From Effusibacillus pohliae DSM 22757 (GTDB taxonomy: Bacteria > Bacillota > Bacilli > Tumebacillales > Effusibacillaceae): 54,023 nt of DNA. A program made the position numbers and the translations under genes. The notes under the pieces were generated by a model that saw only the letters and a list, made by a program, of their open reading frames with translations, made no database searches and was not told where the DNA came from. Positions 3,156 to 48,514 of the stretch are shown here, in pieces. The stretch covers positions 1 to 54,023 of the forward strand of contig NZ_AQXL01000114.1 in the NCBI RefSeq assembly GCF_000376225.1. The letters are read 5' to 3'. How positions within the stretch are numbered: position 1 is the stretch's first letter; every line of letters starts with the position of its first letter.

Positions 3156-3322
3156 ACGTACTCCCCCTACCACTCTACGAGACTGGTGATAGTAGAGTAT
3201 AAGCGGGACTGTCCCAAACTATGACGGAAAAATCTTGTTTGAAACAGTTTTTTTGAGTCCCCGTCAAGTGCTCGTCACTTGACGGGGTGTTGCGTTGCTG
3301 TGCTTCACTTTGATGGGATCCT

Positions 3323-5967: not shown

Positions 5968-6104
5968 CGCGACCCCTCCTCCGCATAAATCAGCCTATCA
6001 TCTTTAGATTACCACATACACACTTTGCAAACAAAGAAAAGAGAGGAAATTCGGCTAAAGACGCCCGCGTCCGTGTGGGCAACGCCGGGTTGATCGTCCA
6101 TGAT

Positions 6105-6131
6105 CAAAAACCGCCCTTGCAGCAAGGACGG
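6105..6131 (-). terminator. Terminator after SRP RNA
   Basis: Leftward hairpin CCGTCCTT-GCTGC-AAGGGCGG (one G-U pair) followed by TTTTT. It lies between the SRP RNA gene and dnaX and would end the SRP RNA transcript. Confidence 0.85.
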
Positions 6132-32436: not shown

Positions 32437-32622
32437 CCTCCAACCTATCCCCCGCCAAGTGGCGCGAATTTTTGCAGCATATTCCGAGTGCTTCCCCCCA
32501 GAGGAGATATAGGGTGACTTGGCAATTTCGTTGCCATAGCGCCACTTATACACTTTTGGTGCAAGTGACACTTCGGCAGTACAACTGCCGAGTCCTCCTA
32601 TGGGCGGGAACCCAAGTAATTA

Positions 32623-47258: not shown

Positions 47259-47349
47259 GATAGGACTTACGGCCTGCGAAATCATCAAGCAAAATATGGT
47301 AAACTAAACGACAAGAACGCACTTGTTCGGTGGGGAGGAGCAATCCTGC

Positions 47350-47856
47350 ATGTTCGATTTTCAGCAGTGGATCTTGGATCATCCGGAAGCTTTGGTTTTC
47401 GTACTGATCGGTTTTTTGGTTATGACGGTTTTGTTTTTTGTGATTCAAACGGTGCGTTTCAACCGGTTGTACAAAAGATATCGGCAATTGATGAGGGGAG
47501 TCGACAAGTCCAACCTGGAGGAGGTGATGATCAAGCAGGCGGCCGAATTGCAAAATCTGCGCAATCAGGTTCAGGCGGTGCAGGAGGCGCAGTCGAAAGT
47601 CCGCCAGGACATCGCAAACAGCATTGGCCCGATCGGCATCGTACGCTACAATGCATTTGATGATGTGGGCAGCGACCTCAGTTTTTCGGTCGCGTTGTTG
47701 AACCGGAACAAAAATGGGGTGGTCATCTCCAGCCTCTATGGCCGGGAGGATACGCGAACCTACGCCAAGCCTGTGAAAAACGGCGACTCCGCCTACAAAT
47801 TGACGGATGAGGAGAAGGAAGCGATTCAACTGGCGATTCGGAATTTCGAACAGTGA
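47350..47856 (+). CDS. DUF4446 membrane-anchored protein
   Basis: A 168-residue protein with one N-terminal membrane helix (about 13-35, EALVFVLIGFLVMTVLFFVI), a coiled-coil stretch (IKQAAELQNLRNQVQAVQEA) and a conserved C-terminal domain GPIGIVRYNAFDDVGSDLSF then SVALLNRNKNGVVISSLYGR. This is the DUF4446 layout seen near spo0J in Firmicutes. Function unknown. The start is ATG 47350 behind GGGGAGGAG. Confidence 0.88.
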   Translation: MFDFQQWILDHPEALVFVLIGFLVMTVLFFVIQTVRFNRLYKRYRQLMRGVDKSNLEEVMIKQAAELQNLRNQVQAVQEAQSKVRQDIANSIGPIGIVRYNAFDDVGSDLSFSVALLNRNKNGVVISSLYGREDTRTYAKPVKNGDSAYKLTDEEKEAIQLAIRNFEQ

Positions 47857-48081
47857 ACGGCACCAGCCGGAAAAACAATTGGCAGGGGCCGCACAAAACA
47901 ACTGCATGGACGGCGGTAGCCACGAAGCAAATTAGCCAGCGGCTGACACAACCTCGGTTCGCCACTCGTTTTTCAAATGAGAGAGTCCCCGTCGATCGGG
48001 GACTTTTTTGATCACGGAACGATCAACTCGGCGTTGCGACGCAAACGGATGGGCTAGTGCCGAACACGACGCTTTTGGTGC
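47857..48081. other. Intergenic with terminator behind DUF4446
   Basis: No gene is supported. AGTCCCCG-TCGAT-CGGGGACT with a T-run (47984-48010) ends the rightward transcript from the desulfurase group. Confidence 0.75.
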
Positions 48082-48133
48082 CCCAGCAAAGTACTTGGAA
48101 TAAGGCTGCGAAGCGCAGCGTCACTTTGCTGGG
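48082..48133. repeat. Hairpin repeat copy 1
   Basis: Outer stem CCCAGCAAAGT (48082-48092) and ACTTTGCTGGG (48123-48133), inner stem GCTGCG-AAG-CGCAGC. The same design recurs 91 bases on with compensatory changes. It continues with GCGATGTGGCGGC outside the stem. Confidence 0.85.
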
Positions 48134-48172
48134 CGATGTGGCGGCTTTTGTGTTTGGACCGGCATGTGGGTC

Positions 48173-48223
48173 CCCAGCGAAGTACTCGGAGTAAGCTGTG
48201 AAGGGCAGCGCCACTTCGCTGGG
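48173..48223. repeat. Hairpin repeat copy 2
   Basis: Outer stem CCCAGCGAAGT (48173-48183) and ACTTCGCTGGG (48213-48223). Compared with copy 1 an A-T pair has become G-C, both sides changed. The inner stem is weaker (GCTGTG-AAG-GGCAGC). Flank GTGATGCGGCGGGCGC resembles the flank of copy 1. Confidence 0.85.
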
Positions 48224-48265
48224 TGATGCGGCGGGCGCTTTTAGCCGAGTTTCCTCTAGTGCTGC

Positions 48266-48514
48266 TTATTTCAATTGCTGCAGGCGCTTATGAACCTGCT
48301 GCGGCGTCAGGCCGTGGGCGTTAATTACAGGGCATCCCTGTGCCACGTTGTGAATCCCCATCAGGTTTTGGTCAGCGCCGGAAATCACGATCGCAGTATA
48401 CTTGTTTTGCGCCTGGTTCAAGTTGGCCGCATCCAGCGTGTCGACCTGATACCCTTGTTCGGACAGATATTCTTGCACCGGGGTCAGATTGGCTTCGACA
48501 GCAATTCGACTCAT
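48266..48514 (-). CDS. UPF0180 family protein (YkuS-like)
   Basis: An 82-residue cytoplasmic protein of the UPF0180 family. Family wording is IAVEANLTPVQEYLSEQGY at the start, GADQNLMGIHNVAQGCPVIN in the middle and GLTPQQVHKRLQQL at the end. Function unknown. It lies two bases behind yyaC, in the same leftward operon, which here runs against the core gene direction. Confidence 0.88.
   Translation of the reverse strand: MSRIAVEANLTPVQEYLSEQGYQVDTLDAANLNQAQNKYTAIVISGADQNLMGIHNVAQGCPVINAHGLTPQQVHKRLQQLK

Follow-up and report, generated by a model that had tools for sequence, protein, structure and literature searches.

The closest described systems include small stem-loop repeats. Passages of PMC2229807 describe ERIC, NEMIS (Correia), RPE, and RUP repeats as small, as forming a stem-loop when transcribed, and as presumed non-autonomous mobile elements. 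Terminal inverted repeats and target-site duplications occur in several of these types, some contain reading frames, and NEMIS transcripts were proposed to be targets of RNase III (PMC2229807). REPs, as covered in sections of PMC3733652, are extragenic palindromes of 20-40 bp that carry an unpaired tag at one end; they belong to the GTAG and CGTC superfamilies, their copy numbers are high and uneven, and CGTC repeats also occur without a linked transposase. The main text of PMC3733652 does not contain the words Firmicutes, Paenibacillus, or Brevibacillus.

Here we describe a hairpin repeat from the window, by which we mean the entire stretch of DNA that was analysed (54,023 nt of contig NZ_AQXL01000114.1 from Effusibacillus pohliae DSM 22757). 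Like the ERIC/NEMIS-type repeats, it is dispersed and mostly intergenic and has both filled and empty sites, albeit without an exact insertion junction. Unlike in several of them, its ends are the arms of the stem, the middle of the stem covaries, the internal loop is conserved, and no target-site duplication was seen at the nested and tRNA sites, whose junctions are old or diverged. It shares with REPs an extragenic palindrome and a high, uneven copy number, but its unit is ~66 nt, and its CGTC lies inside the loop, adjoining the 3' arm, instead of forming an end tag. Because it behaves like the ERIC/NEMIS/REP class but resembled REPs in none of the tests that we ran, we view it as a new family within that class. 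In the open-licence literature that we searched (mostly titles and the beginnings of abstracts), we found no description of the hairpin repeat, nor of any such repeats in the group of Paenibacillus, Cohnella, Brevibacillus, and Tepidibacillus, and it apparently has not been described before.

We think it quite likely that the two hairpins in the window are adjacent copies of a non-autonomous, mobile palindromic repeat whose hairpin is under selection. The basis for this is the family of copies, the covariation of the stem, the nesting of the hairpins within another repeat, and the presence or absence of the hairpin at particular sites.

Two hairpins between convergent genes

The hairpins lie in a gap that is gene-free, as the sequence-only reading had stated. 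The features of this region are:

47323-47856, + strand: DUF4446 gene, left neighbour (PF14584, 6.8e-51)
47857-48265: gene-free gap of 409 nt between the DUF4446 gene (+) and the convergent UPF0180 gene (-)
47984-48009, + strand: ordinary intrinsic terminator of the DUF4446 gene, AGTCCCCG-TCGAT-CGGGGACT plus a T-run, seen in the sequence
48071-48136, + strand: copy 1 of the hairpin repeat, with a G-rich 5' foot, the outer stem, and the conserved inner loop (74.0 bits with model R1, see below)
48082-48092/48123-48133, + strand: outer stem of copy 1, arms CCCAGCAAAGT / ACTTTGCTGGG
48105-48119, + strand: inner hairpin of copy 1, GCTGCG-AAG-CGCAGC, 6 pairs (from the sequence and folding)
48162-48226, + strand: copy 2 of the hairpin repeat (74.2 bits with model R1)
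48173-48183/48213-48223, + strand: outer stem of copy 2, arms CCCAGCGAAGT / ACTTCGCTGGG
48195-48209, + strand: inner hairpin of copy 2, 5 pairs (from the sequence and folding)
48266-48514, - strand: UPF0180 gene, right neighbour, convergent (PF03698, 7.2e-25)

The two copies start 91 nt apart. Their outer stems differ by a single pair, which is A-T in copy 1 and G-C in copy 2, so both sides are altered; this is the compensatory change that the sequence-only reading had reported. It had also described the inner hairpins and the GATG..GCGG flanks as parts of a shared unit. Both are indeed common to the two copies, but the flank is an arm of an enclosing Bacillaceae-1 repeat. It was right that the hairpins are not normal terminators: neither stem has a T-run directly 3' (the next letters are CGATGTGG and TGATGCGG), neither is in the output of our terminator scan, and the gap contains the separate, ordinary terminator at 47984-48009 (whose stem the scan reported on the - strand only).

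Two copies with one altered pair would be weak evidence if taken alone. Folding of the single sequences is unremarkable on the + strand, with z of -1.47 and -1.46; of 200 shuffles, 14 and 17 do as well. The - strand folds somewhat better, at z of -2.79 and -2.06. A repeat scan with default settings found neither the repeat nor its arms, which at 11 bases are below the scan's minimum of 12. Given the unexceptional folding on the + strand, this null result, and the lack of a match in Rfam (see below), the case rests on the relatives of these hairpins. With the 171-base region as the query, DNA relatives elsewhere in the E. pohliae genome have E values down to 2.8e-23. The observation in the window goes beyond chance because a family of copies exists and because those copies covary.

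A repeat family in the Bacilli

The hairpin itself takes up ~52 nt of the ~66 nt unit of a dispersed repeat. In the E. pohliae genome, the 171-base DNA query had 35 matches at E ≤ 1, and the weakest of these are probably due to chance. We built a covariance model (R1) from 21 seeds from this genome, which we located through DNA similarity and a sequence pattern and selected by hand with a pairing score in view. As both window copies are among the seeds, their own scores (E = 8.7e-16 and 8.1e-16) carry no proof.

When 150 of 1187 candidates from the E. pohliae genome were scored, there were at least 71 matches to R1 at E ≤ 0.1; this count includes two that repeat another match on its opposite strand, along with some that belong to a shorter variant. 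At E ≤ 0.01, R1 has matches in 10 of 41 genomes (E. pohliae and relatives): at least 63 in E. pohliae; 13, 30, and 2 in congeners; 3 in one genome of the same order; and 7, 3, 1, 1, and 1 in five genomes of the same class. Nine other genomes of the same order have no match at this threshold. Across the class, 65 of 398 genomes and 15 of 145 genera have matches at E ≤ 1e-4; scoring stopped at 13 candidates in each genome, which caps the copy counts there.

In a collection of named genomes, at least 120 stretches match a strict sequence pattern. R1 was scanned on 80 of the 120, and the 80 pattern matches listed are all from Paenibacillus, Cohnella, Brevibacillus, Tepidibacillus, or Paenibacillaceae bins. 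We also counted copies in 12 named genomes (E ≤ 0.001, up to 150 candidates scored in each): at least 150 in Paenibacillus mesophilus, 120 in Cohnella zeiphila, 92 in Paenibacillus sp. YN15, 52 in T. decaturensis (Tepidibacillus), 37 in Brevibacillus sp. SYP-B805, 28 in P. contaminans, 21 in P. flagellatus, 13 in C. thermotolerans, 10 in C. cholangitidis, 10 in P. faecalis, 5 in P. silviterrae, and 4 in B. invocatus. Copies per genome range from 1 to at least 150, which is a variation of over a hundredfold. Tandem arrays are frequent and have a period of 64-69 nt; the pair in the window is spaced more widely. One stretch in a viral collection also matches.

The sequence-only reading had suggested a new structured repeat family, whose further copies a covariance model should find in this genome and its relatives. 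There are many such copies, their arms covary, and no Rfam family matched the hairpin stretches that we tested. The outcome is a large and recognisable family of repeats, structured and seemingly mobile, from Paenibacillus, Cohnella, Brevibacillus, Tepidibacillus, and their relatives.

Covariation of the outer stem

We aligned 70 distinct copies with MAFFT without using the structure. The 11-pair outer stem is 97.3% paired in these copies; the model used to collect them includes the stem and so favours paired copies. The outermost three and the innermost four pairs are nearly invariant. The four middle pairs each occur as four to six standard pair types, with strong covariation. Over the whole structure, there are 124 two-sided cells (a tally of sequences and not of events), as compared to 42.4 in shuffles, none of 500 of which was as high, and 6 to 24 in slid controls. 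The number of pairs with a two-sided change is not above the shuffles (4 versus 4.8; four pairs vary), and neither is the number of further pair types (20 versus 18.5). In the 21 seeds alone, 6 of 12 pairs have two-sided changes. Since the letters of the stem change on both sides together, the folded shape is being kept.

Outside the outer stem, sequence conservation extends to the internal loop (AGTACTCGGAAT...CGTCACT), and the 5' foot is mostly GGGG(N)CCC. The inner helix of the family (3 pairs) is weakly conserved, at 80% paired with zero two-sided changes.

Nesting within a Bacillaceae-1 repeat

Both window hairpins are enclosed by the halves of another repeat, which they split:

48004-48037, - strand: 3' half of a broken Bacillaceae-1 RNA (RF01690), 94% match to an intact copy
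48231-48257, - strand: 5' half of the broken Bacillaceae-1 repeat, including the GCGG flank, 93% match

The Bacillaceae-1 RNA appears in a table of PMC2864571. In the E. pohliae genome, we found 13 near-full-length copies of ~67 bp, all without the hairpin. RF01690 matches 11 of the 12 loci with intact copies that were tested, and the thirteenth copy is in the window, where RF01690 matches 6039-6106 and the repeat spans 6042-6110. In the hairpin region (47850-48300), RF01690 has no match up to E of 10. The repeat had no match in eight relatives of E. pohliae. Most of the copies examined follow the T-run of a terminator-like hairpin, and the RF01690 matches of intact copies are on the other strand from that T-run. 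Although Rfam types Bacillaceae-1 as a small RNA, its behaviour in this genome is that of a dispersed repeat.

Intact Bacillaceae-1 has an apical loop of ~6 nt at the place where the window and loci L003, L005, L010, and L111 carry the hairpin. Some of these composites of hairpin and Bacillaceae-1 have probably spread as composites.

Where the copies are located

We reduced 291 model hits to 248 distinct copies by dropping repeats of one place and overlapping hits on opposite strands. These 248 include weak hits (E up to 0.1, for loci in E. pohliae and its relatives) and the short variant, and nine copies from the g32 genomes are represented by one entry. According to the gene calls of a retrained hexamer-based caller, 241 of the 248 are intergenic. 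Among the 48 that lie between tandem coding sequences and point against them, 16 have the 3' foot within 10 nt of a stop codon.

The main rival to a mobile palindrome is that the hairpin acts in cis in RNA processing or stability and has a role for the host. It would be transcribed as part of operons and of tRNA and rRNA precursors, an RNase or RNA-binding protein would cut or bind it via the internal loop, and copies would be kept where they are useful. We consider this unlikely, and it remains the main rival chiefly for the copies between tRNA-Glu and tRNA-Val. It fits with the conservation of the internal loop besides the stem and with the placement of copies near tRNAs: in 49 of 53 tRNA-spacer copies, the 3' foot is 2-8 nt from a tRNA, in either orientation, although related Glu/Val loci (from genomes of the same genus and from Brevibacillus-like genomes) account for 20 of the 53. 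Nine Brevibacillus-like genomes have 1-3 copies each, 14 in total, of which 13 are in a tRNA-Glu/Val spacer; this looks like maintenance in place instead of mobility. (We infer the label Brevibacillus-like, for f26, from B. invocatus, a copy of which has the coordinates of one in the f26 genome G126.) Several copies are, by eye, just 5' of Shine-Dalgarno-like sites. Also, the g32 genomes have a single-copy, 78-nt variant that is at one locus, as judged by its flanks, in all 9 of the 9 genomes examined (L286-L294, 1501-1578).

Other aspects of the context argue against this rival. Copies are found in both orientations, so different strands would be in the transcript: between tandem coding sequences, 62 have the orientation of the genes and 48 the opposite one, with no clear bias, and between tRNAs the counts are 34 and 19. 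Furthermore, few sites or flanking genes are common between species when the flanks of the sampled copies are compared.

The 3' arm of the g32 variant overlaps a Shine-Dalgarno-like GGGAGGT, and from its sequence it could possibly control translation. The gene directly after it (seen in L286) we take to be endonuclease III-like.

Intervening sequences of 23S rRNA are insertions in a helix of the rRNA that are excised without religation. In genome G006, hairpins similarly extend the apical loops of two 23S helices, at model positions of ~583 and 1435 (checked in L062). PMC4990558 is a paper on such intervening sequences. However, most sampled copies of the hairpin are outside of rRNA.

L062, 579-617 and 1501-1565: insertions in 23S rRNA, G006 (a like pair of model hits is in L071 and in L076)

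In G001, six copies have identical flanks (L073, L079, L083, L118, L119, and L120), and those in L118 and L119 are in the 16S-23S spacer, opposite to the transcription of the rRNA. The copy in L182 is, by eye, in the loop of a terminator. A copy in G002 (L132, 1425-1489, - strand) lies ~16 nt upstream of the tmRNA gene.

Turnover and possible maintenance at single sites

G002 has two near-identical tRNA clusters that differ 5' of tRNA-Val: one has 82 nt with the hairpin and the other has 5 nt without it, which argues against a processing role that keeps the copy in place. In the filled cluster, the left neighbour of the hairpin is a duplicated 3' end of tRNA-Glu. The junctions of the empty and filled spacers do not align cleanly, so the empty one may reflect a deletion. 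At the nested and tRNA sites, whose junctions are old or diverged, we saw no target-site duplication.

In the gyrB-gyrA spacer of the congeners G001 and G002, the stems differ by a compensated change from C-G to G-C, which suggests selection in place. In the E. pohliae spacer R1 has no hit, and what is left there is a degraded remnant at most, just upstream of the start of gyrA (28688, - strand); this too speaks against a processing role. The claim that the stem is under selection, which the sequence-only reading had based on the window pair, therefore holds for the family as a whole through its covariation. For a single copy in place the support is weak, with the compensated difference between the two congeners on one side and the degraded-looking site in E. 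pohliae on the other.

A probable non-autonomous mobile palindrome

To return to the mobile palindrome that we favour, a putative enzyme would recognise the folded hairpin as single-stranded DNA, as a cruciform, or as RNA. It may read the ends of the stem and the internal loop by sequence and the middle of the stem by pairing alone. If the middle is read solely by pairing, then a replicating lineage would keep the fold while the middle drifts. Within operons and the precursors of tRNA and rRNA, the repeat would be a passive RNA hairpin; it might be tolerated in transcripts because it lies in spacers or loops, where it could be trimmed or be cut by a double-strand-specific RNase. The hairpins in the window would have been carried inside the Bacillaceae-1 repeat downstream of the terminator, and they probably have no function for the host. 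We identified no transposition event, mobiliser, or target-site duplication in the loci and genomes examined.

Other explanations

A bolder version, which we consider distinctly unlikely, is a mobile hairpin of Bacilli whose recognition depends on structure and not on a fixed target. The ~66-nt unit would be copied by its fold into spacers, beside its own copies, and into apical loops, with Bacillaceae-1, 23S rRNA, and terminator loops as targets and possibly via an RNA intermediate, and the middle of the stem could drift so long as the pairing holds. Insertion into a loop stands for individual cases only, namely Bacillaceae-1, 23S rRNA, and (by eye) the terminator in L182.

We rejected insertion into hairpin loops as a general rule. 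Among 177 full-length, untandemed copies, the complementarity of the two flanks was not above that of mismatched controls. The duplex energies of the flanks (observed/control) were -14.28/-13.86 in the E. pohliae genome, -12.16/-11.5 in the named genomes, -11.62/-12.76 in the other relatives, -12.73/-12.4 for CDS-flanked copies, and -12.63/-16.48 for tRNA-flanked copies.

A REP-type repeat that is moved by a RAYT (Y1) transposase would also be palindromic, extragenic, multi-copy, and found in tandem arrays, and 12 of the 20 genomes examined, including that of E. pohliae, have a Y1 domain (PF01797). We give this little credence. There is no Y1 match in five carriers, several of which are drafts: Tepidibacillus (52 copies), Brevibacillus sp. 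SYP-B805 (37), Cohnella zeiphila (120), P. flagellatus (21), and G034 (7). Conversely, nine Y1 matches are present in G185, where the hairpin occurs once. Nor does the unit, at ~66 nt instead of 20-40, have a GTAG or CGTC tag at its end. As no Y1 transposase was found in the five carriers, a RAYT is not the general answer, and its role as the general mobiliser is largely refuted. The more than hundredfold variation in copy number and the copies in tRNA and rRNA operons make this family a tractable case in which to study how REP-like elements might spread without a RAYT.

Finally, a standalone small RNA encoded at 48060-48245 is hardly credible: the region is structured and is enclosed by an RNA that Rfam types as a small RNA gene, but a scan for sigma-70-type promoters found no such site in 47850-48320, Bacillaceae-1 is split there, and copies of the hairpin lie in both orientations beside unrelated genes.

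Additional observations

We considered an upstream companion hairpin, in which the G-run would pair with C's upstream, and found no support for it. In 17 Brevibacillus-like tRNA spacers, the mean stem was 4.53, versus 4.19 in shuffles; this is a crude comparison, as several spacers (for example L301 and L302) were cut at the wrong point 5' of the stem.

In G002, an unrelated insert of ~120 nt follows a tRNA-Glu gene (between tRNA-Glu and tRNA-Val) and a tRNA-Arg gene (L126 and L127). At its end is a second copy of the 3' end of that tRNA, as would be expected from a small element that targets tRNAs.

The window also has a weak copy of the hairpin at 32457-32493 (- strand; 25.5 bits), which may be decayed. 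A shorter relative, of the AAAGTGCTTGTCACTTT type and ~43 nt, is found at 3248-3290 of the window and in L101, L103, L121-L125, L135, and L137-L140. In several places a second hairpin follows it, and one copy of it in G001 is ~600 nt from a match to the Y1 transposase.
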